DNA of 64,000 nucleotides, from positions 186,001-250,000 of the forward strand of contig JASANH010001018.1 in NCBI GenBank assembly GCA_030248295.1, in the 5' to 3' direction. Source of the stretch: Mesodorylaimus sp. YZB2_4. Its lineage: Eukaryota > Nematoda > Enoplea > Dorylaimida > Dorylaimidae. The notes under the pieces are model-generated. The model was not told where the DNA came from. It did not search any database and saw only the letters and a list, made by a program, of their open reading frames with translations. The translations under genes were made by a program, and so were the position numbers. This document shows positions 21,621 to 62,882 of the stretch, one piece after another; the stretch's first letter is position 1; each line of letters begins with the position of its first letter.

Positions 21621-24600
21621 ATGTTCAAATATGCCCTGCTTGCTCAATGGTTACGAAATTTCATATTATACTTTTGTGTGGCGTACCATTTTTCGGTGGC
21701 TGATAAAACGGAATTAGATGAGTATGGGTAAGTTGGTCCTGCTGTCGCCCACCTTGACTGCGAGTGTGGTCTGTCCAGCATTCATACCCAGCCGAGCACT
21801 TCGAACTTCACCTGGCAAACACCCTACTGCCACGCTTAGCACCTTCAGCTGTTAACTTTAGGCCAATGGGTGTAAACTTTTACGATCCATTACTGGCATC
21901 TGCTTCGGGCACAGATAGCATTTTATGACCGCCACTTCTGGTTCCGTTTACGAGAAACTTAGCACTTGGCATTTTGGACTCATCAGAAAACAGATCTGCA
22001 GCTGGAGCACTTTCTCGAAAGAAAACTAAAACAGCTTTTAAAATTTATCTCTACAGTAAACTGAGGTGAGTTCAGAATAGGAAGCATAACTGAAACAGTG
22101 TTGACGTAGGTAATAAACAGTTTTTAACGAGGGGTGTGCGCATGATTAATTATTGCCACTTCGCCTAGACACCAGGCCAGCTAGCGAAGAAGAATAAGTC
22201 AAGTTGGAGTATTCAAAGAGGGCCAAACGTTCTGGTGACAAATGCTCGAATAAGTCTTCGTCAAGTGTTCAAAAGTCGCAGCGGAAACACTTGTCCAACG
22301 CCCCTCCAGCTTGTAGACAAGCCGTAAAACAGGCAGCTAGTGTCTGCCAAATACATAAAAAGGCTCCCTCAGCTTTAAAACTATGATGCATCTTGAATGG
22401 AAATGCGAAAAACAGAATGTAATGCACTGATGAATTAGACTCGAAGAAGTGCGTCAGTCAGGAGATTTGAATGGTTTGGGAGCTCGGGGGGGGGGGGGGA
22501 TATATCTGACGATGAGAAACCCAGTTCGCCAGGTGGATTAGGCTTAGGACTAGGATTGCGCTTCATACTGATCTATGCAGTTTAATTAGAACACGTGTAA
22601 AGTGGAGCAACCATGAACAGCCCTGGTGTACTGCGTGGCCGACTTGATTAGGTGTCTGCCTCTAACCGGGTGCGTACTTGCGTTCGAATCTCGGAGGGGA
22701 GGGAAATCCTTTCTCGTGAGGTGCCCTTCCACCTTCGAGTGTGCGTACTTGTACAGTGCTTTTTTTGATGATGTGCTAGGACATTCTTGATTTCCGTCAA
22801 AGTCTTGGTGTTATCCCATCCAAAGTCGGGACGCCTACATCTGACCACTGATGCCCATGCAACATCCCAGTTCATCAGCATTTATCGCATGTCATCCCGG
22901 TTTGCATTTCAGGCGCACCCCGCTCTCGAGGAACATCACAGCTATTCTGGATCGCCTTGTCAACAAGTCCACCTATGACAAACGACTCCGGCCTAATTAT
23001 GGAGGTTCGTTTCCGGCTCCTTGAATTTGCTATTTTCCAGCACCTTTGTCTTCCACTCAGGTGAACCGGTGGAGGTTGGCATCACCATATTCGTGTCTAG
23101 CATCAGTGCCGTGTCTGAAGTGGAGATGGTAAGCTTATTGCCTGGCGCGATATATCGACCTTTCCTTTATCGAATTCGGGTCTTGACATTTGCACATTCT
23201 CATATTTGGATGACATATGATGGCAGTTGCCCTTTCCTAGTCCAGACCTTTCGTTCAGATTTCGTTGGTTCCGTGCCGATCTGGCGCGGCCGTGCGGTGA
23301 CTGGTGGCTAATAGACGAAATTGAGAGTCTCATCTCGTCGGATTGGTATCGATCGTAGCGCAAGTGGCTCTCGGGCCACTCGCCCATGGAGAATCTCATT
23401 TTACTCAAACTTCTTACACTCTCCATCTTCTTCGAGCAAAGAGACCGGTCTTGAGAAAGAGCTTTTTTTATGCGGATGTTCGATGAAACGAATGAAGCAG
23501 CCAGAGGATATTGGCCTAAGCGTTTTCGTACAAGCAATTTCTGGCCGTGTTTCCTCGCCCAATAATGGAATGGGATGGTAGAAAAGGAGAAAATGCCAAG
23601 ACTAAATGAAATTTTCTTCGTTCCCTTACTTTTTACATTTCTCCAAGAAAAACCTAGACTGCTTATCAGTGAGACTTGGCTGGGCCCGTTTTGTAACGTC
23701 CAATTAACACATCCTGTTCATTTAGCCTCTTTCTTTTTTTTCGGCCCACGCATCTGCGTCAAAGCCTAAGGAAATCGGCGTGCTGATGTAAGGCGTTTTA
23801 GAGAAAGAAAATTGACTTGAAAGGAGGTCCGTTTTTTGCACAATTTACTTTCACAGATTTCTTCGAAGGTTATTCGATGAAAAATATGCCCACTTGCATT
23901 TTAGTGAGGCGCGAAATCGAAATCATGCAAGGAAGCAGAATAAGTTGAAAAACTGTGACTGATTGTGAGTGGCTCCCTGTGGTTATATTATGCATGCATG
24001 TGTTGCCTTGAGACGGAAGAGGTTCGGAATGCACAGTTTGAGTGGGCGCGAAAGTGCCATTTTTGCTGACAGGAACCGTGCAAGAACACGTGCGAAAAAT
24101 CGCTCGAGCTGACAGGGATTTGAACCTGTCACACAACTTTGAAATCCATGAGAACTACAGCAGGCTAAGGCTCGCATAAGACAAGGTCTTTTTGAGCTGA
24201 GGAGATAAAATGTTTTGGTTAGAGAGCGGGCTTTTCGTGACATATCTGCTGTTGTCTGCTCCAAAATGGAGGCGTTGTGCTGAAGGCATATGCATGTTTC
24301 AAATTACACAGTACACGGAAATAGTGTTTGTCTCAACCAGTATTCGCCAATAAGAAAGACAGTGTTCAAATTGTGGACTCTGCGTTATAGCTATCACGAT
24401 GCCCTACAAAACCCTGTTTTGACTTATGCAAGTGTTCTAGGCAGTCAAATTTCAATTTTGACATGACATTCAAGGGGATTGTAAATTTTAAACTCCGTTG
24501 CTTGTTACGTGAAAATGTAGCCAGACCCACTAAAAACATGATGTTGCAGTGACCCCGTGATCCTAAATCTTTGTCGTTTTGCTCATTTTCAGGTTAGTGC

Positions 24601-27600
24601 TGTGTGCATTAAATTCAGACTTGCACAGATTTGAACGCGCCAGTTTAGCATTTCTAGTCCGTTTTGGTTTCCTGGCGAACAGGCTACGCTCAGGCAGTGC
24701 CGTAAACACTCGTTTGTCTCCCCGGTGTAGTGTGGGTGCTGATGTACTTCGACCGTATGTGGTATAGTCCACCCGCGCACACCTCGCCATGATGGTTTGA
24801 GGGTAAACAAGGTGAAAAAGTGTGCTCATTGAGTGAATTCCATTGATTTGAAGGGTGTTCGGGAATAGACCATCATTTATTTGGGACTATCATGCCAAAA
24901 TGTGTTGTAAACTTGAATTCCCCACCTGGGACCCATTTGAATATTCGGTCATGCAAAGATTTGTGTCTATACATTTACTTCTTCATCCTCCAGTCCTGTA
25001 ATTAGGGCAGAAAGAGCTAAAAGCGCACCGCGCGAATTTCAAATTTTTGGCTTCCTGGTGAAGCGAACGTTATCGGAGAACGTACTGTACGAGCACCATT
25101 TCAGGACTACACCTTGGACATTTACCTTCGTCAAATGTGGTCTGACAGGCGTCTGGCCTTTAACTCGTCCATACCTAGCATAACGATTGACGTTGAATAT
25201 ATGAAATCGATTTGGGTGCCGGACACGTTCTTTCCAAACGAGAAGAAAAGTCTAATACACACGGCCACAACGCATAATAGTTTCTTACGCATTACAACAG
25301 CCGGCAATGTAACAACGAGTCAAAGGTAGGATGATTAGTGCTCTTTATATTCTAGGATTATACGGTGGATTTTTATTTGCGACAAATGTGGAAAGACCCA
25401 CGTTTAGCCTTCTCACGTCTGAACAGCACTGAAATAAAAACACTAACTGTCGGCTGGGACTATACATCGCATATTTGGCTCCCTGATACTTTCTTCCCAA
25501 ATGAAAAGAAATCAACATTTCATACAGCAACCACGCACAATAGCTTTCTTCGAATCAGCGCTGATGGAGAAATTTTGACTAGTCAGAGGTAACATGCGCC
25601 TCCTAATTCAATAAAAAGGAGGTTCTTTCAAAAAGTCGTCGTCAGTCCGTCCGTTTGCCGTGGTGCTTTTTGTGCCTTGCCTGGCTTTATTAGTGTGCAT
25701 GCTTGGACGACGCCGACTTCTTTCGATGCCAAAGGCAGCTTTTCTTGTTTCTTTGATTGACACCTTCCCAGTAAGGAAAAGCTCAGTTTTGAGAAGGATT
25801 ACTCTATGTTCCTTGTGGTTGAATTCAGCTTCATCCCGAAACCAAGAGCGAGTTTTTTTTGTTCAAATACCTTTTATTTCCGCTTTTGTGGTGAAATTTA
25901 TCCCAGCGGGCTTTCTTTCACAAAATCCCTTTTCCCCCGGCCACCCATTGATCCGTAATTTTTTGCTGCATGTCCTGAACTGCCTTTGGCATCTCCCCAT
26001 TGCGCCTCTATAAAAACTTTACACAGCTTTCTGTAGCCGTCATTCACTTTACATTCTTACGCTTTCTGCAGTGGACAATGATCGGGTTTTGAATCCGTCG
26101 ATTGCACTAACTCTGCTTACACCATGTAATGCCTGGGTGTAAGTGTGACTGATATCACGTCAACACACAATCTAGGGCTGTCATTTTCTAACTGTGGCTT
26201 AAACAAATAAATGTTGCTTTACACTCGAAGTTTAGACTGAATGTTGCCTGGCCAGTGCTCTGCCCATGGTACATAAGTCTGCTATGTTTCAGGTTAACAG
26301 TGACGGCTGCTTGCGCCATGGACTTACTACTTTTCCCTTTGGTAGGCCGTTACTTTTTGGGACATGGGTCATGCAAACATTTGACATCTTATTTCAGGAC
26401 AGTCAAGAATGTACTTTGGAAATTGAATCATGTAAGTCATTGAATTGTGTCTGTCACTTATGAGCAATCGTGTCCAACGATGGGGTGCACCAGCAGCTTC
26501 CAAAAATTTGTGTTTTCAAATCGAGTCATCCCTCCGATAGTATAAAAAGTGTGTCCTTATTGTGGCGTGTATTGGCATGTGTCCTTGATGCCTATCGTAA
26601 AGAATGCCACATGTTTATGGATTATCGACAGCGTAAAAGTATCGAAGGGCGTATTTTTGTGGGCGAGGTAATTTGTAACGTGTCACTTTTCCTTTTTTGG
26701 GCATCCTGCTGACTTTCGCTTTGGCTGTTTTTTTGCATGAACATTTTTTGCAACTTTACATTATCCGCATGATGCGAGTATGTATTTTGCAAAACTGTTG
26801 AACCCTTTACTGTCGACAATGCTGTTTATGGACACTGTTCTATTGTGTAACACGGTCGTGGCTGGGCGTCTGCACATCCAGCCTGCATGTACATACTTAC
26901 ACTTTCAAGGGGTCGCTCTTGTGGGTCCATATGGAGCCTGTGATAATCTGAGACTAACTGTAGAATGTTTTTCTAAGTCTTAAACTTTTCTAAAACTGCA
27001 ATGCTTTCCGCTTCACTTGGCCGCCTAACAGTCTGTCTTTTACACTGCATGGTATTGGTCTAAAGAAGGCCATCTCGCTGTCTGCTCTTCTAATTTTAGA
27101 TGGTTATTCATCGGCCGACATAAAGTATGTGTGGTCGATAGGGCAGGACTCTGTGACCAAAGAGGCTGTCAATTTGCCACAGTTTTTGGTCAAGGAACAC
27201 AAAATCGATATCAAGGAGACTGTGCTGTCGACAGGTTAGTAGACATGTGCTGAGAAATAGGTTTGTGATGTACTGTACGTGAACGTGGAGGTAAGGGTTC
27301 TATTCCCGGCTAGGACTTAAGTTTTAGATCAGTTGTCTTGTTTATTCTTGCCTCATACAAAGTCTGTAACCCTTCTGCCTGGAGATTTATGGCTACTGGG
27401 AGAGAGTTATTGATCTCCCCTGGTCAGGAGACGTCAACCCCTCGAGTTGGTGTTTCAGCCGCTCGGAGTCGGAGTTTTTGTCCTGCCTGCAAGACTTGGT
27501 GACATGTCCTCCCGATCTGTGACCTAATCCCTTTCATATTCGAGGGTGAGTGCCCATCATCCAGCCTCTCATTTCAGGTTCCTACTCCCGACTGATCTGT

Positions 27601-30600
27601 CGATTCCTTTTCCTGCGAAGCATCGGTTTCTACATGATCCAGATCTACTTGCCATCCAGTCTCATAGTCATCATATCGTGGGTCAGTTTCTGGTTGTCAC
27701 GTGACGCCACTCCAGCTCGGGTACCTGCAGTGAGTCCGCCTCGGTTCCTGAACTAAGCGAAGTAACCATTTTAGGTGGCCCTGGGTGTCACTACTGTGCT
27801 GACTATGACCACTCTTATGACGACCACCAATGCAGCCATGCCCAAAGTGTCATATATCAAATCAATTGACGTGTATTTGGGGACATGTTTTCTTATGGTA
27901 AGTGGTCTGTCTGAATTAGGGATTGTCTCTGTGAGGTCTGGTCTGTGGTCTGAATGCACTGCATTTTTCTCGTCCGGGTACACTCATACTGCATGCTCGT
28001 CATTTCAGGTCTTTTCATCCCTGCTGGAGTATGCAGCCGTTGGATATTTGAACAAACGATTGAAAATGCGACGAGAACTCGAGGCTAGACGGCAAAATCA
28101 GATGATCCAGCCGACGTCGCCAGCACCGCCCTCTGCAGAGACCCAACTTGGAAGCAGCAGTAAGCAACTGGACATAATCAAAGACCAGGCTGTTGGAACC
28201 AATAACAAGGTGATCATGGCAAAGAATGTGGTAAGGCCTTACAAGAACACCTTTCCAAACGAATTAGCCGTCTTTTGCGACCATAGGTCACTCCAGCACG
28301 ATCGGCAGATTATGGAAGCATAAAATTCTCGGCTGGCCCTCCCTACGGCGCGTTCTCGTCCAGACCGTACGATTACGCCGAAGATATTCGTCTGCCCATG
28401 CAGGCGCCCCAACAGTTCTCATATCCTCATTATCACCAAATCCAATCACCACTCACGCTGGCCCCGCAAACAGTCCCCTTGAACTACAGTTTGAGACGTC
28501 GTCGATCGAGCGAGTGCGATTGCGATTTGAAGGCTGCACTGGCGGCATCCATTCAATACCCACCGCAATCAGTGGCTCAGAACGTACAATCGGCGAGTGT
28601 CTCATCGACCAAGGCCATCAAATTGATCCCTTTGTCAGTTTCGAAAAAGAGAAAATCCAAGGAATTGAGTTCGATTAAGAAAAGGCGATGGGACACGATT
28701 AATCCCAGTTCTATCGACAAATATTCCCGAGTCATCTTTCCGTTGGCGTTCACCATATTCAATTTGATCTACTGGCTGGTCTACATGCGCATTAGTCAAA
28801 AAGAGCTCTAAACTGATCACTGAACAATCTTTCTTATCGACACTTTCTGTGTTATCGTAGCATATCCTTACCCTTATCAGCTTATCACTGTCCTATCTCT
28901 CCATGCCTACCATCAGTAGATGCTCTCCAGTTCTCCATTTCTTACCCGACTTTCCGCATCTTTCTTGACTTGTTCGTTCGTGTCTCCACGACCGACAATT
29001 TCATATTTGGTCGTGTTTTAAATCGATTTTGTGGTAAGGCCTAATGTAGACCATTTTGGTGGACTTTGTGCCCGTATGACTCTCATACTGTGTCCCTTTA
29101 GAACACATCCCTTTTATCATTTTTTGACTTCCTTCGTTGGCCATTGTGCGGTGCACCCCAGTCGTGTCTGTGTGTCCAGCTTGCCGTGCAGCCATGCATG
29201 TTTTTGTATTTCCAGACCTAAATAACATACTTTTAGACGGATATTCAACTCGCGACATCAGCTATCGATGGAAGGGCGCATCACCAGTCAGCGTCGACAG
29301 CGATGCGCAGACCTTGCCGCAGTTCCAGGTCAGGAATTATACAACTAATCAAAGGATTATTACATTGAGCACGGGTAAGCGAGTTCGAGTCCCACCCAGT
29401 CCGACAGTTTTGGGTTAGAGTCATTTTTCAGGCGATTACTCGAGGTTGAATGTCCGTTTCATATTTGTGCGCAGTATGGGGTTTTATCTGATGCAGATCT
29501 ATTTGCCGTCCAACCTTATCGTTATCATATCATGGGTCAGCTTCTGGTTGCACAGAGACGCATCGCCAGCAAGAGTAAGCCTTTTACAGTTATTCGGGTT
29601 TTGTACTTCTCTATCCGAACCCTTGTTCAGGTTGCGTTGGGAGTTACCACAGTGCTGACTATGACCACGTTGATGACGACGACCAATGCCCAGCTGCCCA
29701 AAGTGTCCTATGTGAAATCGATAGACATCTACTTGGGCATATGTTTCGTCATGGTCTTCGCCTCCCTGCTAGAATACGCGGCGGTTAGTTATCTGAATAA
29801 GAAAATGAAAATGAAACGGGAACGAAAAAAACAACAGGAAGCGTCTCAAGTGCAAGAATTCCCAATGATGCCCTCAACAAGCACCACCTCGAAAACACCC
29901 CAGACTGCGTTCACCATGGTGAGTGATGGGTGACTGGATAGGAGTGCAGGGCGCGCACTCAGGATTGTGACACGCCTGTGCACCCGGGATACAGTCAGCA
30001 GCCCCCCAGGGTGGGTATGGCGGTACAGTAACCAATATCCATTTCAGGAATCATCGGCCTCAGCCTTCTATCCATTTCCGAGTGGGGTGCAGTCGGCGGA
30101 TTACCAGCAGCTGTTGCCGGGCACATTGAACCCGCCCCCGTTCGCTCATTTGGAATGTGACTGTGATCTCGGCGCTCGTCCAGTGCCCCTGAAAATATCA
30201 AGACCACGACTTCGGAGACGTCGTATTCGAGGTGTGACGCCGAGTACGATCGATAAGTATTCTCGACTCCTATTCCCCGTCGCCTTCGCTGGCTTCAACG
30301 CCGTCTACTCCATCGCTTATTATTTTGTTAGTCGCAAAGAAAGACACGATCGAGGAGTCATCGATTGATCACTCCTACATTCACAATTTTTTGATTTTGT
30401 ACAAAACAGGTTCCTGAAATCGAATGAAATTTTCTATTCTTGCCTTGTTCCTCCGGTTTGCATAGGCGTTTGGGTAGACAAGGTTGTACACATTATATTG
30501 CAATACGGTCTATGCCCGATTTGGCAAGTGTGCCTGTTTCTTTTTTGTTCTGTGTAACTTTTTCTGTATGGCTTGTTGCTTGGGGGAATACGTATGTGGG

Positions 30601-32469
30601 CTATTCTTAGTCATACGTGTTGCCATGGTGTTCAGGAATTCGGTGCTCCTCCAAACTTGGCTAACCACACGTGAGCGAGCAGTTTGGACTGTTTTCGTGA
30701 GCCCTGGCCTCCTGGCTGCTGGTGCACCCTAACCGTGTATACTAGTGCGTGCTACGCGTAGTCCTCTGCTATCCTATATCTTAGACTGTTTATTATTTGA
30801 AATACATTTTAGATGGTTATTCCACCGATGATATTAAATTAATTTGGGCCAAAGGAGCCAAGAATTCGACCGATGTCGATGACGAGGTCAAGCATTTGCC
30901 CACGTTCGAAATGGTGGCCTACTGGGGATCGGACACGATGGCCTCGCTTAGTACTGGTAGGCGTACGTAGACTGCGTGGGTGGGTGTGCGAGGATAGGGT
31001 CAGTGGTGACAGCGGTGGCAATGTTCATTGTATCGGCATTCGATTTTTGACAAAGCTGCACTGTTTTTAGGTAACTATTCGCGCTTGCTGTGTACATTTC
31101 GGTTCGATCGCAATATTGGCTTTTATTGGATTCAAATTTATCAGCCGTCGATTATGGTATGTTCTGCTCAAGCTTAACTTGGATGAGTACCAATTATGAG
31201 GGCGAGGTTATCAGTGACATATAATGGCCAAGTAGCCATGGGGGACCTGCAGTATTGTGTAGGAGTACTGTAATGCAGCCCGTGACGAGGCCCTCATGGC
31301 AACCTCATGCCGTTGCTAAAACGTGTGCTGCATGCTCGGACTCTGTTCAGACGAGCTGCAGCAGGATTAGGCCGTCCTATTTTCGACCTTCCATTTGTAG
31401 GTTGTAATAATTAGCTGGGTGGCATTTTGGATCAACCGAGATTCAGCACCAGCCCGGGTCACCCTGGGTATCATGACTGTGCTGACCATGACCACCCTCA
31501 TGACCACAACCAACCGTCAAATGCCCAAAGTCAGTTACATCAAAGCGGTCGATATCTATCTGGGTGCCTGCTACGTCATGGTATTCGCCGCCCTCTTGGA
31601 ATACGCGGCAGTCAGTTATTCGAATAAGAAAATGCAAGATCGCAAAAAGAAGAAACAAAGCGCGCAAGCGGCAGTGGCGGCCACAGCTACCACAACACTG
31701 GCCCACACTGCAGCCAGTACTCCAGCACCCGCCGCCCCTTCCACGTCCTCAGCGATGACTTACCAACAACCGACCACCACCGCCTTCGGCCCCGCTTTCC
31801 AGGCGGCAGATGATACACGACTGAGGGCTCCCTATTGGGGGGATCGATCCCCGCAGCCCGACCTGGTTGACCACATGGTGAGTGTATGTGAGTGTATGGC
31901 AATCCTGTGAGCCTCGAATTGGTCCGTCAGGTCAATGGACCAGTGATGGTGCAGATTCATCAAGGTAATTGAAGGTCCCTCTTTCTTCAACTGTCAATTT
32001 TACTGCATACACGCCTACGGCACGGTCGAGTTCGCTAGTGAAACCGCGTTGGACGCCAAAAAGATTTCAGTAAAACGAAATTGCTACCCAAAAACCCAAA
32101 AGCACACCCAAAGATGTTAGCTATTGCACGACACACTCTTGCAGTCCTAAACTATCCACTCTCACCGAGTCAACACATTTGTTCTAATTTTAGCACGCGA
32201 CACGGGCACGGGTAGTCATCAGCCCCGAACCCCCTTTGCACCTCGATCACCCAATAACATACTCGCCGCTGCGATCACGTTTCACCTTTAATCCCTTCAA
32301 ACGATTTTTCGTCCGCAAACAAGTCAACAATGCCAACGTGTCCGATAAGAAACTTCAAATGGTAGCCAGTGGTATCGATAAATATTCTAGGGCCATGTTC
32401 CCTTTGGTCTTCGGCGCCTTCAACTTAATTTATTGGTCAGTCTTCTTAAAACAGAGTGGCAAGATCTAG
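21621..32469 (+). CDS. Rdl: Cys-loop GABA-gated chloride channel, RDL-like, with alternative exons and three C-terminal cassettes
   Basis: Ligand-gated chloride channel subunit of the neuronal plasma membrane. Common exons: 21621-21727 (signal peptide), 22913-23004, 23061-23128, then 25105-25325 OR 25356-25588, then 26293-26341 and 26398-26431 (phase 1 end). Each of three cassettes can follow: 27100-28811, 29237-30368 or 30813-32469, giving 572, 486 or 517 aa with the first LBD exon (4 more with the second). Family marks: [32 protein letters not shown], loop D YLRQMW, loop A WVPDTFF, the Cys-loop C-x13-C ([15 protein letters not shown]), EIESYGYS, loop C TG.YSRL, TM2 [12 protein letters not shown], and a terminal IDKYSR...FP...TM4. 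The putative GABA-contacting Arg of loop D and Tyr of loop C are kept. Closest to insect RDL. Whether all cassettes are really used from one promoter is inference. Confidence 0.9.
22629..22700 (+). repeat. tRNA-derived SINE-like head
   Basis: Contains GTGGCCGACTTGATTAGGTG (A-box-like), GTCTGCCTCTAACCGGGTGCG and GCGTTCGAATCTC (B-box-like). The same layout occurs on the minus strand at 61597-61676. The acceptor stem does not pair, so this is not a working tRNA. Lies in intron 1 of the receptor gene. Confidence 0.5.
25105..25325 (+). other. Mutually exclusive ligand-binding exon, version A
   Basis: Phase 0 to phase 2 exon of 221 nt encoding loop D to the loop E region ([12 protein letters not shown] ... 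WVPDTFF ... [12 protein letters not shown]). Acceptor TTTCAG at 25099-25104, donor GTAGGA at 25326. It is a paralogue of the next exon: [13 protein letters not shown] and [12 protein letters not shown] are nearly identical, but the loop between RLAF and the WxPDTFF motif differs and is 4 residues shorter. Confidence 0.85.
25356..25588 (+). other. Mutually exclusive ligand-binding exon, version B
   Basis: 233-nt exon, also phase 0 to 2, with acceptor TTCTAG at 25350-25355 and donor GTAACA at 25589. The intron between A and B is 30 nt (25326-25355), shorter than any other intron I can define here (minimum about 40). Including both exons, or neither, breaks the frame, so exactly one must be used per transcript. 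Confidence 0.85.
27100..28811 (+). other. GABA receptor C-terminal cassette 1
   Basis: Exons 27100-27234, 27578-27720, 27775-27897, 28009-28230, 28287-28811. Encodes [12 protein letters not shown], loop [12 protein letters not shown]1, TM2 with [12 protein letters not shown] (2' Ala, 6' Thr), TM3 [19 protein letters not shown], a long intracellular loop of about 215 residues with a CDCD motif, and [15 protein letters not shown]4. The TM1-TM2 junction uses donor GTACCT at 27721; a GTGAGT donor 9 nt later would insert Val-Pro-Ala at the base of TM2. No AATAAA or ATTAAA occurs before cassette 2. Confidence 0.85.
27391..27460 (+). repeat. Dispersed repeat family B, copy in receptor intron
   Basis: CTGGGAGAGAGTTATTGATCTCCCCTGG followed by GAGACGTCAACCCCTCGAG and TTTCAGCC matches 57541-57650 closely. 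It lies in the intron between 27234 and 27578. Confidence 0.6.
29237..30368 (+). other. GABA receptor C-terminal cassette 2
   Basis: Exons 29237-29374, 29432-29574, 29631-29918, 30048-30368, all open and phase-matched to the common exon ending at 26431. Encodes [23 protein letters not shown]1 with [21 protein letters not shown]2 [14 protein letters not shown]3, a shorter intracellular loop (also with a CDCD motif), and [15 protein letters not shown]4. The intron inside TM3 found in cassette 1 is absent. There is no upstream ligand-binding N-terminus in the 425 bp after cassette 1. Confidence 0.85.
30813..32469 (+). other. GABA receptor C-terminal cassette 3 (altered pore)
   Basis: Exons 30813-30956, 31071-31156, 31401-31877, 32194-32469. 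Encodes [23 protein letters not shown]1 split by an intron after IYQPSIM, and a TM1-TM2 exon without the intron of the other cassettes. TM2 reads [17 protein letters not shown], with Thr at 2' and Met at 6' where the other cassettes have Ala and Thr. The intracellular loop is rich in Ala/Thr/Pro; TM4 follows [19 protein letters not shown] at 32688-32693 is the only canonical polyadenylation signal I find downstream of any cassette. Confidence 0.85.
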
Positions 32470-34045: not shown

Positions 34046-34477
34046 CTAACCGTACAATCCACCGCTGTATGGAACACCGCCGCGCTTGCCGTACATGCCA
34101 CCACTCATGGGAACGGCCCGGGATAAGCGATCGTAGGATGGCCATTGGTCGAGTTTGGGAGGAGTCCATTTGATGCCACGGTCAATGCCGGCCACATTCC
34201 ACCTCTTGCCGTACAGACCACCACTCAGGGGCACGCCCCGTTTGCCGTATATGGAACCACCCATGGGGAGAGCACGCTTCGGATAGGGCTCCTCGACGTT
34301 AGCACCCTCGCCTCCGTATTGCACTTCGCGGGCGCCCAATATTTTGCGTAACCATTGGGCTACTTGTTCGTTCCGTTCACTGTCTTCTTCCTTTGTCTCG
34401 CCAAAAGCTGATGTTGGACCAAAAAAGCATACGAACGCGAAGATGGCCATTAGAGCTAATCCAGCTCGTTGGTGCAT
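34046..34477 (-). CDS. Neuropeptide precursor with repeated GG-x-Tyr-amide peptides
   Basis: A 143-aa secreted precursor processed into short amidated peptides in the regulated secretory pathway. From the ATG at 34477: a hydrophobic signal peptide (LALMAIFAFVCFFGPTSA, about residues 5-23), an acidic spacer, a PYPKR cleavage site, then ALPMGGSIYGKR and GVPLSGGLYGKR back to back. A 29-residue spacer and AVPMSGGMYGKR follow, and last GGVPYSGGLYG at the C-terminus, where the terminal Gly serves as amide donor without needing KR. Predicted products end in GG(L/M)Y-amide or GSIY-amide. A splice acceptor (TTTTTCAG on the minus strand) lies about 40 nt upstream of the ATG, so a 5' UTR exon is likely. 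I do not recognise a named family; the Tyr-amide ending weakly recalls MTYamide of insect NPLP1. Confidence 0.85.
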   Translation of the reverse strand: MHQRAGLALMAIFAFVCFFGPTSAFGETKEEDSERNEQVAQWLRKILGAREVQYGGEGANVEEPYPKRALPMGGSIYGKRGVPLSGGLYGKRWNVAGIDRGIKWTPPKLDQWPSYDRLSRAVPMSGGMYGKRGGVPYSGGLYG

Positions 34478-37400
34478 GATGGGTTTCGATTCGGGCAGCC
34501 GAGGCCGATACACAATCTGAAAAAGTGCGAACTATGTATTCAGCCAAAGGTGATGAGGCCACCAAGGACGCACTCGACCGAGTCGTCGATAGTGAGTAAG
34601 GAGGTTGACTAGCGGAAAAAATAACAATTACTAGATTCATCACAAAAATGCCAAGAATTTCTTCTTGAACGCCTCCTCGCTTTCGGCCATAACATAGCCA
34701 AACACTCGAAAAAGCGCCACGGGACACTCGTCATGCAGAGCACGGGCAGAGGTCTCGCTCCTCAATCACTACTAATGAAGCTAAATCAGACCAAAACCTT
34801 GACACCCTCCGTGCCCTAACGGCAATCGGGTCTCCTCCAAGGACGCCTTCGCACTCGACTATCGCATTTTCATTGACACTGTTCCTCGATTAAGCACGCA
34901 TCCGGCCTGAACAACCGCGAAAAGATGCAACATAACATTTGCACACTTTTATGCTAACTAAGCTTAAGACCGATGGCGATGGAGAGGACAATCCTTGCGA
35001 GCAGGTACACGGCGAGGAGAGCATAGCCAGAGTATTGACGCCCGCCCGACACTCTATCAATCAGACCGACCATATCGGGCCACTCATTAACCAGGACGTT
35101 GATGGAGTGCTAACTTCCCAAGAATCCAGACCAAGTGTGCTCAGCCAGAATAAGAATTTGCTTGGGCGTAAATGAGAAAAAAAGAAACTGTTCTTGGGGG
35201 AGAATTCAGAAGCCGCAAAAAACGCAGGCTGAAATCCGTCTGACGAGTCGAGTTCAATAAAAGTGACCAATGAAAAGAAAATTGTGAATGAAAAAAGTGG
35301 AAAACTGCTTGTAATTTTGCCAGAATATAGCCACCTATTTCTCTTTTCTATTGCCTCATTCCAGATGAAAAAAGCTGGTTGTTTCGACTAATTAAAGCGT
35401 GGATGGCTCATTTTCGACAGCTGTTTTGAGAAAACAGTATGCCCTGAAGAAGAGCACTGGTAGCTAGGCCTAAGAAGTTTCTGAGTACAGTAAGGTAAGG
35501 TCATGTCCATATGCTGTGTTGTCCAGGTTTGGCGTGAGCACTAAAAGCTGACTCGAAACAAAGCTGTTTTGCCGTCAAGAAAATAATGCCATGTTCTGCC
35601 CTTTGAGTCTCCATCTACTAAACAAGCAGTACCTGCCTCTGGGTGAGCAAAACAGGACAAGCCTCCTCCTCTCGTTCGGGTTAGTTCAGCCCTCAAATCC
35701 ACGTGCATATGCACTTATAGATATCCAAAAATGGACAACTCTCCATCATACTCTGTTCGCACTCGACTAGTTAACCGATTCGTTATTCGAAGGTGTCCGT
35801 TCAAGAAACTGTGTCCAAAAGTAGGCAGGAAACACCCTCGCCACAGTCCTCTCTTCACTCATTCGAAGGAAGCTTTTCAGTTCATCGATGCTCGTTAATA
35901 GCCTGAAAACCACGTCCTTCGTGCCACGGGCGCCGCATATATACTAACAAAGTGCCCCCTAGACCCGTCCCACGCGCAGTACGGGACGCAGCTTCTGTAC
36001 CGAAAAGCTCAATCAAGATAACAAAACCAATAGCCAAAGTTAATTAGATAATAACTACAATCATTAAAGACCACCAGCTGAGTACTGTATGGGAGACAAG
36101 TATGGCCAGTCATGTCTGAGCGAGCATCGCAGTCGAGCACTTGGGCGATTAATGCCTACGCTTTTCGTGTTCATCGACTGTAAGTAAAGTAATGAGGCCA
36201 ATCTCTTTTTTCCAGAAACCCCTAGTTAAAATCTTTCCCAACAAACGAGTCCATGGCCGCTTGAAAACTGGCATTCGCCCCGGAGGAGTAAGCACAACCG
36301 TCGATGCTTCCTTCCATACTTACTAAAATAAATGATGCTCGGAGGGGCGAATCTGAACCAATAAGCTCAATTTCAAAATCCTGCTCAATGGCTCGAATAA
36401 AATGCAGGCAAAGACCCTTCGACTATCATAGCTTACTGTACATATCTCCCTGAGCTCGTTGAAATTTGAAACTGTCCGAAGTAAATAAAAATTAATTTTT
36501 TCCCCTCTCCTCCTTATCTTTTCCTTTTCCATCATTGCTAGTCCTCGATTCTTCTCGCATGCGAGCTCAGCCCTCCAACCGATAGGCCGTGCCACTGAGA
36601 CATCTGGGCACCAATCAAATATACGTTTGGAATGCTAGGCGCAGCAATAAAACTCATTTTTGCCATTTCACTGTTCATGTGCATGCAGAAAGGGACATTT
36701 CGAGGAAATGCCTTCGTGTTCTTGGGCCTGAGGTATGGCAAGTAGAAGTTGGGGAAAGGGCTCGATCAAATTCATGAAAGCAGCAATGGATTGTTGACGG
36801 TGTGAGGACCGTTCTGCACGATGGAAAGCTAAAATTAAAAGCATGTTTACACGCTGACAAACGAGTCTTCCATATTAACTCCAATCAAGAAAGCCTCTCA
36901 CAATTTTCTGCAAGTAAAAATTTGAGTTCGCATTTTTTGTTTAACATATTGACATAAGAAGTTTAAGATTAGGCAATAGTATCTATCGTAAAGCACGGGC
37001 CCATATGGATCCTCTGATCTTATGGTGGTACCGCGAGCACGTGCGTGGAAAGGTTATGGATCTATGAGCCACGTGGTTCCGTGTAATTCTCGCACGTGGA
37101 ACCATTACGGCCTGTAAATGGTTTCCATGCGGACCAACGAGGGACTGCTCGAACCAATTTTTCATTGGATACAGCAAAAGCGGCTGCAAAAGGATGATTG
37201 CTGACGAGTTCAGCCATCTTGTTGAGCTCACGGTCAGTTGGCTGAGCACAGTTTGGCATCCGAGTTGGGCCGAGGAAAAATTTGGGTTTGCCCCTTCGTC
37301 GTTGAGCACATACGGGCCACATCACAGAATTCATTCAATGAGGATAATACGGCATTGCACCACACGATATCGCATATGAGATGGGGAAAGCTCGCTCATC

Positions 37401-42308: not shown

Positions 42309-43041
42309 TCATGTCGTCGATTTTTCCACTCGAACGGGATTGTATTTTAGGCTTTTCTCGATTCTTGCACCCAGCTCATTGTAGGATGAGGTCAACCGCT
42401 GAATCATGCAGCTTGACAAAGAAGGTGCAAGAAGACGGCACTGCCCCTTTTCCATGCACTGAACAAATAAATCCATATCCGTATATGGCATGTCATATTT
42501 GGTTAATACTTCCAAAGAAAATAATGCACCCCCGTATGCACTTCCCAGAATAATAGCTGCGAAAAGCCAGAAACGGTTCAGTCGTCGAACCGACACAATA
42601 CTCCTCTCTGATTCTTGTGTATTGCTCATGATAAACAAAAAACACACTTTCAGGCATGAATGCACCTTTGGAAAATTATCAGATGCCGACGAGTCAATAG
42701 AAATCCTATTAATCAAATACATAGATCCAAAAGCTAAGTAAGCCAAAGGCGACCACGAAACAAGCCCAGATTGACCATTTAAATGCCTGTAGAACACTTA
42801 AATCCATGCCCCGGTCTAAAATTGGAAGCGCCCTAGTCATAGCGATGATATCAACGCTTCCATATATCCTACTAAAATCCACAGCTTTTACTCGATTGTA
42901 AGTCGGTGTCACAAGGAGCATAGATGCCTCGAGTCCGCCACGCTGTATTGCCCCGACTAATCCCGATCCAATGCCTTCCTGACTAGCATCTCCGAAATCA
43001 CTTCCATTGTACCATCCGAAAGAGCAATTTAGCTTCCACAT
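42309..43041 (-). pseudogene. Ionotropic (glutamate-like) receptor pseudogene
   Basis: Paralogue of the intact IR at 62883-64000. From high to low coordinate: KLNCSFGWYNGSDFGD, LVTPTYNRVKAVDFSRIYG (ligand-binding S1), then a first membrane segment SIWACFVVAFGLLSFWIYVF. There the frame breaks (about 42710-42740), and the sequence continues in another frame with NRFWLFAAIILGSAYGGALFSL, YTDMDLFVQCMEKGQCRLLA and SSYNELGARIEKSLKYNPVRVEKS before a stop. The intact copy has about 150 further residues including the last membrane helix; here they are absent. The 15-nt GT...AG that would bridge the break is far too short for an intron. A sequencing indel could explain the frameshift but not the missing C-terminus. 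Confidence 0.75.
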
Positions 43042-48400: not shown

Positions 48401-50497
48401 CGATGACCACATTCATCCTCGGGCAAACAACCGCTGATGATTGGATTGCGGAGTTGGAGAAGGAGCCGCGATGGATAGCTGCCCAAGGCGAGTACATACA
48501 GTGGTTTGACATCAAGATTCCTTACACGACTGTCAACTACGAACAAATGAAAGCAGCAGTCAAGAAAATGGATCTTTTATTAAAAAATACATTTTTGCTG
48601 AGTGGATACGATTTCGACGCTGAACCAGGAACGCTACATGCAGTGCCCGAGGGCTGGCAATGGGTAGTCAGAGACTCAGCCTATTCTGCTTTGTATGCTG
48701 GCAATCCAGTCAAAATGGCTTTGTTCAAAACGGTCAGAGATTTCATGGTTAGAAATGGGGTTGATACAAGGTACGACATCGTCCTAGAGGTCTACTATAT
48801 TGTAAGGTCAGCAAGCAGCCAGGCTTGTTCCGGACTCGATCCTCAGTGCCTGAGGTCGTTCTACTCATAAACAAGAACTCATTTAGCTCCTCATTTTTGT
48901 GGGTGACTTACGCAGTACCATCGAGGTGCTGCGAGTGGAGAGACAGAAGCCGGACGAGGAGACTTTCTCAGCTATCGAATAGACGGGGCTCAATCACAGC
49001 CCACGTGCCATTGTGCGAGGAGGTCTGCGTCCAGTTCAGGATGCCCACGTGGGAAGATATCTACTCCTCGAGGAGAAGTACAGAGGGGCTATGCTGTGTG
49101 GGTTGGTCCCCGCACAGACTTGCGTAGGAGGTGTCATTGTTATATGCGAAGGCAAAGCAGGTTTAGGCCGAAAAATTTAAAAATGAGACAGAAATCATTC
49201 TTTGTTCCAGTATTCTTGTTAGCCACAAGTTCTAAAACTTAGCGCCAGAGGTTCAGTGTCACTTCTTTCTTAGCGTGTTCCCGCACGCTTTAAAAACCGT
49301 GGCTTCTGGGAAATTCATTTCTTGACATTGGCAAGTTTAATGCAATGATAAAATCACCCTGCTGGCTAAAGATCACTAAGGATGAAGCGAAAAAGTCAGT
49401 CCCTGTAGGAGTGGATCAGATAAGTTCTTTGATAGATTTAGTGCCTTTTATGGGCTAAGCCAATGTCGCGAGATATAGATATGAAGAGAGGCGACAATGC
49501 TTCGAGTTTGGTGCTTTACAGTAATCAAGAGAAGCGAGATGAACAGACCGTTGAGGTCAACAGAGAAAACGCACACCTGGGCATGAACGATACCAAATCA
49601 CATATCGCCTTTAAGTGTAAAGTGCTTCATTTTCGGGCATTGTGCAATAGCCGCCGCTTCCTCCGTACAGTACATATTTCTTACACTCGCCGCTTCCGAG
49701 TGCAGGAAATATGTGCTGTACGAAAGTGTATATCAGATCCAACTCCTTGTTTCACTGCTCTGCTGACGGAAATCGTTTCATAAAAAACGATGTTCTGGAT
49801 GGTTAAGAGTAAAACAATAAGCCTTTTACAAATGAATATTTTTAGCACTTGGGGATTCGCTCATGAATTTGGACATAATTTCCAAACCATTTGTTTCTCG
49901 TTCGCATTTCATAGCGGTGAGGTTACAAACAACGTGTACAGTGCCTTCCAATCAGCCTATTTTTGCAACGATGGCAAGCACAAAGTACATTGCAAGCGTC
50001 AAAACCATCCAGTGATTGACTTTCTCCACGACATGGCAGAAACCAAGGCGGAATTGGCGAAGGGGAAAATCTACGGAGATGGAAACAGAACGACTTATAT
50101 CGGAAATCGAGGTAGCTTCCTTTTTTGGATGCAAATTTACGCCACCTACGGTTTCATGCCATTGCGTGAAATGAATCGTCGTTTTCGCGAAAGATTTATC
50201 GACCCTGCAGATCCGATGTGCCGGGGCGACGATCAAGGCAAATTCGACGCCGTCTACGAGACATTGAGTGATATAATAGGAGTAGATTTGACCAAGCATT
50301 TTGACACTTACCATGCTCCACCCTCACCAAGAGCTCGCGAACGGGTAGCGGCAATGGGCTACCCAAAACCAGAAATCGAATTGCCCGATGTGGAAATACC
50401 GCCAGGCACACCGTTCAGGTGGAATCCCCCTGGCCAAGAAGAACCTGATTTCGCCCTCCCACCTTTAAAAAGTTTTCAGTTCCCTCCTTTGGACTAG
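45447..50497 (+). CDS. Secreted M60 (enhancin-like) zinc metallopeptidase with N-terminal lectin-like domain
   Basis: Predicted extracellular metallopeptidase; M60 enzymes typically cleave mucin-type glycoproteins. Exons 45447-45498, 47174-48064, 48242-48770, 49846-50497; 707 aa, all junctions in phase. Exon 1 is just a signal peptide (MARSLMTFFTVLCMFGAG). Residues about 25-180 carry Cys-containing repeats with CLSIHD, LVPCN and SLWVV, resembling a ricin-type beta-trefoil. The M60 core follows: WSPYGGPISLQVFG, GYDF, WQWVVRDSAYSALYAGNPVKM (the family's 'Asp ... Ala-Gly-Tyr-Pro' block) and the zinc site HEFGHNFQ (His497, Glu498, His501) with GEVTNN (Glu516) downstream. The C-terminus is Pro-rich. 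I chose donor 48770 (AAG|GTACGA) over 48801 because only it keeps phase with the HEFGH exon. The gene sits between two long direct repeats. Single-copy here; horizontal origin is possible but untested. Confidence 0.88.
46426..47110. repeat. CCGAA-rich patches flanking an intronic segment
   Basis: Runs of ACCGAA/CCGAACC at 46426-46530 and 47050-47100 in M60 intron 1 both begin with the identical 15-mer CCAGCATCGACCGAA (46426-46440, 47050-47064). The layout parallels the TACCCG-bracketed segment in the KANSL1 intron. Confidence 0.45.
49664..49722. repeat. 59-nt near-perfect hairpin in M60 intron 3
   Basis: Arms 49664-49688 and 49698-49722 pair over 25 positions with one mismatch and two G-U pairs when read as plus-strand RNA; the loop is 9 nt. 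Could be a small fold-back element or a processed hairpin RNA; flanks do not extend the stem visibly. Confidence 0.6.
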
Positions 50498-53505: not shown

Positions 53506-54642
53506 CCATAGTAGGCCTTAGATGTGTTCAGAAAGTCTTACTTGAACAAAACTTCACAGCGCAGGAGCGAGAACAAATGACACGGGGCAATGACATTTCT
53601 GTTGACATGGGTAATCGCAGTGTAAAGTAGTCTGGATGTCGTTTCTGGGGCGGGAAAGTCGCCACTTGATTTATATTCGCACATTCATTGAGATGTGGGA
53701 ATAAAATTCAGGCATTTTGCTTGATTTATTTAAAGAACGCATTGGAATTTATTGGCGGACTACCTTCTTACAGCAATCGGGACATCCTTCATTGAAAAAA
53801 AATCATTTTAACGTTTAAAATTTCAAATTTGTGGCGCCGCGCTGGACATACATGTATTCACTCATGCATTCCCTCGAAAATTCCACTAAGAAAACTAAAA
53901 CCTGTTTTAAATATGCGCCACGATCCCAGGTAACTCATGGGCACATTAAATTTTGTCAGAGATGCCTAATTCGGTAGCAATTAACAAAATTAGAAAATCA
54001 ACATTTTCATCGCTCCTTACTCAACTGGGAAGTTCAGTCAACTGTCGCTTAGAGGCCAAGTGCAACTTTTCGAGCTCCTTCACTTGAGCTCATCCTCATC
54101 GAAATTCGATGCGTAGTTATCAATATATTCCATGATTGGACAAATTGAGGACTGCATTTCTTGCACTTTACGCTGTCGTCTAACAAATGCACTGGCCAAT
54201 CATCATCTCGAGTGGGGAAAAGGCTAAGACAGTCGGCCTTTGATGGATTTGGGTTTTGTATTCATTTCTTTACCGCCACAGGGGCTGCATATGCATATGT
54301 ACATTGGGGAATGTTCAATGTGATTTTGACACAGTGGCTTGTCTGGCTTGTGTCTTGCATGACAAGGGGCAGTTTTGTTCACGACAGGAAGGAATTCGGT
54401 TCATTTACTACTCGCCATTTCGCACGGATAATGTGCCAGCGCACGATGATAAGCTGTCTAAAATTGCACTATCCAGGGCGAAGAAAGCATTCTATCAGCA
54501 AGGATGTTAGCTGTTTGCGCTGATACGATATTTGCCTTCTCTTTACCGCGTTGTTGTTTGGTGAGTGACTGAAGCCCTTATATAGTATCACACTTCATTA
54601 CAGTCCGCTCCTAACCGAAGGTCTCGTAATTCAGGAACTGAA
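53506..54642. other. Intergenic, upstream of P450
   Basis: No gene recognised. An acceptor-like TAATTCAG about 10 nt before the P450 ATG suggests a 5' UTR exon somewhere in this stretch. Confidence 0.45.
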
Positions 54643-56201
54643 ATGCTTTCATCCATTCTTTCAGTGGTTATTCTGATAATCCTTGTCAAAGTGTGTATCA
54701 CCAAAACTCGATTCTTACCTCCTGGTCCCACTCCGATACCCATATTTGGAAATTACTTCTGTTTCCCACCTGCCTTGTACAGATATGCCCACGATCTCTC
54801 CACCACTTACGGTCCAGTCATTCGTCTCCGCTTTGGAATATCTGATGTTATCGTCCTGAACACCTTCGAGGTGATCCACGATACCGCATCCAAGTCAGCC
54901 TTCGCCAGCCGGCCAGATTGGTTGTCCATGACTTTGCAAAGCGAATTTCAAGCTTCTTTCGCTTTTCGACAGCACGGTGCCCAATGGCGATTCTTACGCA
55001 AGACCTCGGTCAAGGCTTTGACAATCCTGAAAACACAAGCTTCCAAAAATGTGGAAACACGTTGTCAACGAGTTTTTGATCGACTGATCACCGAATTAGT
55101 TTCGAGTCCAAAAAAGTATGAATGGACACAGCCCATTGATCCAGCAAAAGCCTTATTTCGTTGCATTTGTACGATCATGAGCGAAACGTGTTTCGGTCGT
55201 CATTTCGACCCCGACGACCCAGAATTATGGTCCATCCTGGAGTCAGCCCAGGATACGAGTAAACTAACAAAAGTAGGGTCGCTGACTGATTGTTTCCCGT
55301 GGGCACAATTTTTATTCCGTCCATTAATTGAGCAAATGCGACACGATGATTTGGTATTCAAAGGCTACGTGGTGGGCAAGTTGGATCAGTGCGCAAATAG
55401 TGCAAAAGAGAACGACACTGAAATATATGATTTGACTGATGCCTTGCGAATGGTGGCTGCTAAAAGTGAGTTTGAATTTTCTAGACAGCATACAGTATGT
55501 GATTTGTTTTGAAAATACGCTGACTGATTACAGGCGAGAAGGAGCTACCTGAAAATGAGCAAAAGCTAATTCGCTATTCAGCCGTCGACCTATTCGGAGG
55601 TGGTGTTTTCACCACGTTGACCACCCTCGAGTGGGCACTTCTCATCCTGGCTAAACACGAAGACGTGAGAAGGGAAATGCGACGCGAAATAAATACGATC
55701 TGCGGCGATAAGCAGTTTGTGTCCTTGGACGACAAGCCGAGGCTCATTTTAGTGGAAGCCACGATCACCGAAATTTTACGTTTCGCAAGTACCCTGCCTT
55801 TCGGTGTGCCTCGTTGCACTGTGGACTACGCTACCGTGCAGGGCTATCAGCTAGCGCCTAATACGCCAGTATTGTGCAACCTGTGGGCTGTTCATCACGA
55901 TCCCGACACCTTTCCCAACCCCTTCGATTTCGATCCATATCGATTTTTGAACAGGTCGGACGAGGGGATGCTAGAATTAAGACAAGACTTGGTCGCTAGG
56001 GTCATCCCGTTCTCCACTGGCATTCGTCGATGCCCGGGCGAGCATCTGGCGAGACAGAATTTATTCCTCGTTTTATGCAATGTCGTTAAGAAACTGGATT
56101 TTATATTGGCAACTGATTATGATGATTTGAACTTGGCAGAAGAAAATTTTTCAAGGAAACCAAGGTCTTACAAGTTGAGATTTCAAGTGGTCGAGTGCTA
56201 G
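54643..56201 (+). CDS. Cytochrome P450, CYP2 clan, atypical I-helix
   Basis: Membrane-anchored ER haem-thiolate protein. Exons 54643-55465 and 55534-56201; 496 aa, normal for the family. An N-terminal anchor helix (ILSVVILIILVKVCI) leads to the Pro-rich hinge PPGPTPIPIFGN. The C-helix WRFLRK is present, as are the ExxR motif EILR (about 353), PxRF-like YRFLN, and the haem loop FSTGIRRCPGEHLAR with Cys at about 441. The I-helix reads DLFGGGVFTTLTTLEWA: the family consensus has an acid (Asp/Glu) before the Thr, but here it is Phe. That acid normally takes part in proton delivery for O2 activation, so a monooxygenase reaction may be impaired or the enzyme may do peroxide- or isomerase-type chemistry. 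Substrate unknown. Confidence 0.95.
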
Positions 56202-58287: not shown

Positions 58288-59470
58288 CTACGCCAATTGA
58301 ATGGGTTCGACCGTGTTCTTCTCTCGTTTCCTGTCCTCCATTTCCTTCAGCATCATTTCGTCCACACCTGCCTCCTTGTACGCTTTCTCGTCCATCATTT
58401 CCAGGTCGCTGGACAACTGGGCAATGCAGATGGCCTTCAACTGCTTCAGGTCGAACATGTCCGCCACGACCAACTGGCGTCGACGTTGCTCGTCCGTGTC
58501 GTAGCCGACGATCATGCTCGACTCGCACCACGCCTTGAGCCCGCCCGAGATTTGGTACTTCTCGGCCACGTTCAACAAACGGCACACGGCGTCCAGATCG
58601 ACTTTAAACTGCTCGTATTCCCGGCCCACCTCGCCGCAGTACATGTAACGCAACAAGGCGAGCATGGTCGACCGATCCACGTCCTCGGACACGTCGATTA
58701 CGCGTTCAACGGACTCGGCAAAGTCGCTCTTCTCCAACATTCGACTGAACACGACCGAGTGCGAACACAGCACGTAGCGATGGCAGCTAATGGCCTCCTT
58801 CGTTTCGTGATTCGCCGCGTCCTCGTTGTTGGCCCTGTCCTTGCCCACCAACACCTGCAAGTCGGAGAAGGGCGGCGAGCCATGGCCGGAGTTTTCGATG
58901 GCTCGGAACTGGGATCGTAGTATTTCCATGCGGCTCTGGTAGGTCAGTGGATATTCTGCATTGGCCAAGAAGTAGGGCTTCCCTGAAAACAAAGGACAGT
59001 GGTTTACAAGGGGATGTCGAACACCACTGCACCAACTTACCGAAGAAGTTCCTGTCGTGGGGTATATCGATCAACAGGAAAGCAGTCAGGGGCAGGCTCA
59101 GTTGGTGAATTCGAAGCTCGATTGTCAGCCAGTTTTCGATGGCGAACCCGCACCCGCTCGATCCTCCGCAGAACGTAAAGAAACACGATCGGTTCATCAT
59201 CGTTTCACCTTTTCCATCGCAAAGGATTATTCGGAAGGTCATCGGTATCAGTACGGGCGAATCCTTGCAGCTTAGGCCGATCGTCGTTTGGCCCTTCTTG
59301 GCCACGACCATTGTCCACTTGGCCCCGGCGCAGCCCGGAATCGAGAACTGTCGACTTTGGTTGCGATAGCTTAACGTCTCTACTGACCACTTGAACGACG
59401 TGAACCGGAAGCCTTTGTCGAAATTGATCGACGAGATTGCTTCGAAGGCGCGCGACTCCGTACCAGCCAT
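58288..59470 (-). CDS. MATH-BTB protein (SPOP/roadkill-type CUL3 adaptor)
   Basis: Substrate adaptor for CUL3 ubiquitin ligases. Exons on the minus strand: 59470-59041 and 58982-58288, with a 58-nt intron and phase 1 junction; 374 aa, the usual SPOP size. The MATH domain (about residues 15-150) begins FRFTSFKWSVETL and holds the beta-sandwich strands WTMVVAKKG and NWLTIELRIHQLSLPLTAFL. The BTB domain (about 185-300) shows FSDLQVLVG, CHRYVLCSHSVVFSRMLEKS and MLALLRYMYCGEV. A 3-box/BACK-like tail includes VADMFDLKQLKAICIAQLSSDLEMM. The MATH half is divergent and I cannot see the substrate-binding residues clearly. ATG at 59470 is the first that leaves an intact MATH start; ORF extension upstream is unlike the family. 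The terminus ends in a charged segment (MEDRKREK). Confidence 0.9.
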
Positions 59471-62657: not shown

Positions 62658-62882
62658 TTTGCAGCAGCGCAATATGTAGCCTCGAGCAACTGATTAGGTA
62701 CCTGGTGCGTATGGCTGTGCAAGCGGTAGCACACTTAAAACTTTGTAAACTAGAATTGCACCTGCTTGATCGTAAACAGAAGCGCACACTTGTTGAGTCA
62801 GAATCGGCTACTTTGATGCTAAAACCTTCCCGATAATACACTGAAAGAAGAGAAACGAGCCCGACACACAAGATTTATTCAG

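Follow-up and report, generated by a model that had tools for sequence, protein, structure and literature searches.

An unc-49 gene with three tandem channel tails and a predicted pair of alternative ligand-domain exons

The window, as we call the whole 64,000-nucleotide stretch of Mesodorylaimus sp. YZB2_4 DNA that was analysed, contains an unc-49 gene with a single head, in which a predicted choice of exon 4a or 4b is likely followed by the joining of one of three channel tails, giving 2 x 3 = six subunits. The probability that we attach to this reading is about 85%. The further proposal, that 4a and 4b are chosen independently of the tails, so that the ligand site and the pore could be selected separately in the six subunits, and that a second locus of the same genome (on contig C6) repeats the arrangement with tails B and C, is considered somewhat more likely than not. 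In the proposed mechanism, one pre-mRNA would start at the head, and splicing would pick either 4a or 4b. The phase-1 donor of exon 6, at 26431, would then pair with one acceptor, at 27100, 29237, or 30813, and each tail would end translation at its own stop codon. Because each tail carries its own stop, it is the tail that would determine the intracellular loop, the chloride pore, and loops B and C of the ligand site; loops D, A, and E of that site would depend on which exon 4 is used and could vary without any change of the pore. In C. elegans, inhibition of the body muscle is mediated by UNC-49 receptors, and by analogy with that species the products of the window gene would form GABA-gated chloride channels in muscle.

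Gene model and tail cassettes

Modelling of the gene under splice-site constraints gave a single head with three tails, all on the plus strand (Table 1). The introns of this model are GT-AG, and tails A, B, and C are each open to their own stop codon. At some tail donors an alternative in-frame site lies 6 nt away, and the site that keeps the conserved residues was chosen. From its hydrophobic N-terminus, the head block (21621-26431, plus strand) continues through the ligand-binding domain and the Cys-loop to an end in phase 1. Each of the three tails completes the same Tyr codon (in the motif YGYS) and continues through loops B and C and TM1-TM4 to its stop, with the phases 1, 1, 0, and 0 at the first four tail boundaries in all of them. 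A preliminary description of this DNA had proposed one GABA-receptor N-terminus followed by three complete tail cassettes, each starting at YGYS in phase 1 and running intact through TM1-TM4 to a stop codon. The splice-constrained model and Pfam bear this out, with the cassettes at the coordinates given in that description.

The predicted proteins are 572 (A), 486 (B), and 517 (C) amino acids long when exon 4a is used, and 576 (A), 490 (B), and 521 (C) when exon 4b is used. The Pfam domains Neur_chan_LBD and Neur_chan_memb were found in all three predicted 4a proteins, which were the isoforms scanned, with E-values of 3e-43 or better. The best PDB match of isoforms 4aB and 4aC is chain 9she, named as GABA receptor subunit beta. 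Rfam gave no match at its gathering thresholds. A PAR motif is present ahead of TM2 in the tails, and a chloride channel is predicted; Met at position 6' of TM2 is common to window tail C and C. elegans UNC-49C.

Table 1. Exons, tails, and associated elements of the unc-49 gene (positions of the window)
Feature	Position	Strand	Remarks
Head exon 1	21621..21727	+	Start codon, hydrophobic N-terminus; gene model
Head exon 2	22913..23004	+	Start of ligand-binding domain; homologous exon in C6 paralogue
Head exon 3	23061..23128	+	68 nt; equal length in C6 paralogue
Alternative exon 4a	25105..25325	+	221 nt; loops D, A, E by position; GT-AG ends
4a-4b gap	25326..25355	+	30 nt; GT at start, AG at end
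Alternative exon 4b	25356..25588	+	233 nt; groups with exon 4 of Trichinella and Trichuris
Head exon 5	26293..26341	+	First half of Cys-loop; gene model
Head exon 6	26398..26431	+	Last part of Cys-loop; phase-1 donor, predicted partner of each tail acceptor
Tail A	27100..28811	+	5 exons: 27100-27234, 27578-27720, 27775-27897, 28009-28230, 28287-28811
Tail B	29237..30368	+	4 exons: 29237-29374, 29432-29574, 29631-29918, 30048-30368
Tail C	30813..32469	+	4 exons: 30813-30956, 31071-31156, 31401-31877, 32194-32469
AATAAA	32688..32693	+	Poly(A)-signal-like; 219 nt past tail C stop

When head and tail pieces were compared with the whole window by tblastn (E up to 0.1), the head was found once, and two far-off matches were at chance level (E of 0.095 and 0.059). 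The same search gave no head homology in the gaps between tails A and B (425 bp) and between tails B and C (444 bp), as had been noted earlier for gaps of about 430 bp said to hold no N-terminal exons. It could be assumed that tails B and C are separate transcripts, with upstream exons of their own that went unrecognised or with trans-spliced starts; however, the gaps without head homology argue against this, as does the fact that the tails start in the middle of a domain, in phase 1, with an acceptor that fits the head donor. The same head is, moreover, joined to tail B in relatives: P0061 (488 aa, on a 1700-base contig) and P0049 (513 aa, on 2699 bases), each from another nematode, encode head and tail B unbroken on short contigs, which would fit with spliced mRNA. 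Separate transcripts are therefore considered extremely unlikely. Concerning the 3' ends of the messages, none of the 12 poly(A) hexamers looked for occurs in the gap between tails A and B (425 nt), and after tail B only the variant hexamers AATGAA (30423) and AATACA (30801) are found. With no clear poly(A) signal after tails A and B, separate 3' ends for them would be hypothetical, which counts against the proposed mechanism.

Other candidate genes were noticed elsewhere in the window. An ORF at 34049-34531 (minus strand) with repeated GG(I/L/M)YGKR motifs has no Pfam match; presumably it resembles a nematode neuropeptide precursor of the NLP-10 type. Two ORFs on the minus strand, 42312-42797 and 62886-63998, are similar to ionotropic glutamate receptors, with Lig_chan below the cut-off in both and Lig_chan-Glu_bd above it in the latter. 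Ion_trans and BTB_2 occur in neighbouring minus-strand ORFs (60333-60965 and 61761-62693), as in a voltage-gated potassium channel. There are also a Peptidase M60 (49784-50494, plus strand), a cytochrome P450 across two reading frames (54586-56198, plus strand), and a BTB-domain protein (58291-59070, minus strand).

Orthology of the tails and the second unc-49 locus

The three top homologues in the first search were C. brenneri UNC-49, a Trichinella receptor, and a Trichuris receptor. The maximum-likelihood tree of tails comprised 69 rows: 64 hand-chosen segments, taken from 47 out of 232 retrieved proteins, and five tails from the genome itself (three from the window and two from the second locus). 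Window tail A is placed in the UNC-49A clade (18 rows, support 96/89), window tail B in the UNC-49B clade (27 rows, with a moderate support of 91/75), and window tail C in the UNC-49C clade (13 rows, support 100/99), whose long branches were flagged by a warning of the tree program. Judged from their sequences, the window tails are 1:1:1 orthologues of UNC-49A, UNC-49B, and UNC-49C, and the locus is the orthologue of unc-49. The same order of tails in related genomes, which the preliminary description had named as a check, was found: A-B-C is also the order in the merged three-tail gene models P0001 and P0006 (C. brenneri and Parastrongyloides). The gene models used for Trichinella, Trichuris, and Soboliphyme contain tails B and C only. 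With every tail of the window placed in a different UNC-49 clade, and in the order A-B-C, the tandem tails represent an old nematode design and no local accident.

One might also consider that the three tails arose by amplification within this lineage and that their likeness to unc-49 is a matter of convergence, as the tail cores of the window are 59-69% identical to each other. However, forcing the five own-genome tails into one clade gave a log-likelihood 108 lower and a p-AU of 3e-92, and each window tail is found inside the clade of its namesake. Local amplification is rejected under the tree model used, and we regard it as hardly credible.

It is also worth describing how such genes are annotated in databases. 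The unc-49 models P0001, P0002, P0003, P0006, P0007, P0008, P0010, and P0013 fuse two or three tails (730-890 aa). The 934-aa model P0159 (named as Aphelenchoides besseyi) has two tails, both in the UNC-49B clade, being either a duplicated tail B or fused genes. Where a database model spans about 640-930 aa and contains two or three membrane domains, as P0001, P0002, P0006, P0159, and others do, the tandem layout has likely produced an artefact.

In the genome-wide family searches, the best candidates were scored, among the matches listed. A second unc-49 locus is situated on contig C6 at 932400-939290 (plus strand; loci L018-L019), where exons 2, 3, 4a (221 nt), 4b (118 + 115 nt), 5, and 6, as well as tails B and C, were modelled. 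Exon 4b is split there by an extra intron, and exon 2 has a GC donor. The 20 kb retrieved for this locus gave no tail A. A blastn comparison of the two genes, which bears on the conserved intronic elements expected of a Dscam-like choice by paired RNA, matched strongly at exons and their borders, and intron-only matches are short and weak. The protein identity between the window and C6 is 89% for 4a and 84% for 4b, with dN/dS of about 0.05 and 0.065, respectively, values that are rough with dS near or at saturation. Tail B is 82% identical (291 codons) and the core of tail C 87% (160 codons), with pN of 0.13 and 0.095 at a saturated pS of about 0.82. Amino-acid changes between the two loci are thus few compared with silent ones in 4a, 4b, tail B, and tail C. 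The second unc-49 locus is adjoined, in tail-to-tail orientation, by another GABA-receptor-like gene at C6:939931-943207 (L019), recognised by minus-strand tblastn matches.

These comparisons bear on the possibility, raised already in the preliminary description, of a partial tandem duplication, with a single tail and a single exon 4 in use beside dead copies. It would agree with the lack of clear poly(A) signals downstream of tails A and B. Nevertheless, all three tails are open and have GT-AG introns, tails B and C have a low pN and 4a and 4b a low dN/dS relative to the C6 paralogue, and orthologues of each tail are found across nematodes, the intact tail A being placed in the UNC-49A clade. 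Dead copies are therefore disfavoured, and we consider them very unlikely.

The exon pair 4a/4b

The pair 4a/4b lies within the coordinates covered by the preliminary description and is absent from it. The two exons are homologous and adjacent, with the same phase and 64% protein identity over 73 codons. The lengths of both are 2 mod 3, so either exon alone keeps the reading frame, and including both or neither shifts it. The shortest of the 26 modelled introns (window locus and C6 paralogue) is 54 nt long versus 30 nt for the gap between 4a and 4b, which at this length could probably not be spliced out as an intron; when the gap is read as coding, it meets stops and shifts the frame. Because both exons or neither would shift the frame, and because the gap is likely too short, we infer that 4a and 4b are mutually exclusive. 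In the C6 paralogue the gap is 48 nt, close to the shortest modelled introns. The length of the gap alone may not enforce the exclusion there, and the frame rule still would.

The relationships of exon 4 were analysed in a tree of 31 hand-chosen segments from 30 of the 232 proteins, to which four from the genome itself were added. Both 4a copies group with two exons of Romanomermis culicivorax (95/90). In a second group (94/86), both 4b copies and the other copy from Romanomermis are united with the exon 4 of Trichinella and Trichuris, which is single there. A tree constrained to unite the seven mermithid-type exons (4a and 4b) is not rejected, with a p-AU of 0.099, so that 4a may have arisen either in mermithids or before them. 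In the Romanomermis gene model P0121, available as a protein only, 4a is followed by 4b in one protein, eight residues apart, and its protein similarity to the window exon 4a is 78%, a likeness that would place the source of the window close to the mermithids; in the partial predicted protein P0146 of R. culicivorax, a 4a-type exon is joined to tail C. As read from the sequences, the 4a/4b pair is older than the split of the window and C6 loci, and it is likely common to mermithids.

The positions of contact with GABA were also considered. The excerpt of PMC3927061 names seven RDL positions mutated for GABA: Tyr109, Arg111, Phe146, Ser176, Glu204, Phe206, and Tyr254. Four of the seven (Tyr109, Arg111, Phe146, and Ser176) map to exon 4 and are kept in both 4a and 4b. 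Of the other three, Glu204 belongs to exon 6, Phe206 has its codon split by the head-tail junction, and Tyr254 maps to the tail, where the site was read off alignments for tails B and C and off the translation for tail A (STGSYSRL). All the positions are kept in both exon 4 copies and the three tails, with Phe206 as Tyr. As the contact positions are kept in 4a, 4b, and all tails, all six predicted products could bind GABA.

The debatable issue is whether the choice of tail is real and 4a and 4b are nevertheless not exclusive, one of them being an unused remnant or both being included with a compensating splice. The Romanomermis model that joins 4a and 4b, the 48-nt gap at C6, and the lack of a report of such a pair for C. 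elegans in the parts of the literature found would speak for this. On the other side, the two copies agree in phase, show proper splice sites, and keep the contact positions that fall in the exon, they have changed little between the window and C6, where the lengths of 221 and 233 nt are kept exactly, and the window gap read as coding is interrupted and out of frame. Non-exclusive use is thus regarded as unlikely, and mutually exclusive inclusion is preferred. No report of a pair of the 4a/4b type in unc-49 was found in a limited literature search, mostly of titles and abstracts, and the available part of PMC5697891 describes none. As far as this search reaches, neither the tandem ligand-domain exons nor their predicted combination with three tails seem to have been described before.

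Comparison with known receptor genes

The C. elegans gene unc-49, with its products UNC-49A, UNC-49B, and UNC-49C, was reportedly described by Bamber et al. in 1999. According to the excerpts available, a common N-terminal block is spliced to one of three C-terminal blocks, giving UNC-49A, UNC-49B, and UNC-49C (PMC6920096; PMC11296113); UNC-49A is scarcely detected, and UNC-49B and UNC-49C make up the receptor of the adult (PMC11296113; PMC3990606). The window gene resembles this system in having one head and three alternative C-terminal blocks, in the order A-B-C and with tails orthologous 1:1:1. It differs from C. elegans unc-49, as described in the literature found, by the tandem ligand-domain pair 4a/4b, and the genome differs by the second unc-49 locus, with no tail A within the 20 kb fetched. 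The preliminary description knew of no case in which the whole membrane domain is swapped, which is mistaken: unc-49 does so, and avr-14 does so with two tails (PMC3144221, in excerpt). Its proposal of a common head with alternative channel bodies remains the best reading, given the layout of unc-49 and the 1:1:1 orthologues, and the comparison with protocadherins or Dscam that accompanied it is unneeded. In the protocadherin cluster, each variable exon has its own promoter. In the window gene, the variable part follows the common head.

The nematode glutamate-gated chloride channel gene avr-14 encodes, in the available parts of its descriptions, one ligand-binding domain with two alternative channel and intracellular tails, AVR-14A and AVR-14B (PMC3144221; PMC4095040). 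The likeness to the window lies in one ligand-binding domain with alternative channel tails, although avr-14 is a glutamate receptor with two tails. A locus of the same genome at C3:915600-919998 (minus strand; L022) is glutamate-gated-chloride-channel-like, with two tandem channel tails after one shared loop-C exon, and looks like avr-14. Its tails appear to diverge later than those of the window, past loop C.

Tandem alternatives that alter ligand-binding loops are known from insects: exons 3 and 6 of Rdl, exon 3 of GluCl, exon 4 of nAChR alpha4, and exons 3 and 8 of alpha6, with all six combinations of alternate exons detected for each of Tribolium RDL and alpha6 (PMC2064938, in excerpt). 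The same excerpt places the changes of Rdl exon 3 near loop D and those of exon 6 near loop F (PMC2064938). Exons 4a and 4b hold loop D itself together with loops A and E. The insect alternatives are single exons, whereas the window combines an exon pair with alternatives for the whole tail. We take RDL exon 3 to be the exon preceding the counterpart of window exon 4. A further close system is that of R. culicivorax, with tandem 4a/4b (P0121) and a 4a-type exon with tail C (P0146), known there from partial predicted proteins.

The A-B-C order of the window and its 1:1:1 orthologous tails place the origin of the three-tail design of unc-49 earlier than the split of the C. elegans line from the line of Romanomermis, Trichinella, and Trichuris (Mermithida belonging to Enoplea). 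The pair 4a/4b would add to this old design a second splice choice, located in the ligand-binding domain and independent of the tails, which, if true, would raise the number of subunits encoded by the gene from three to six.
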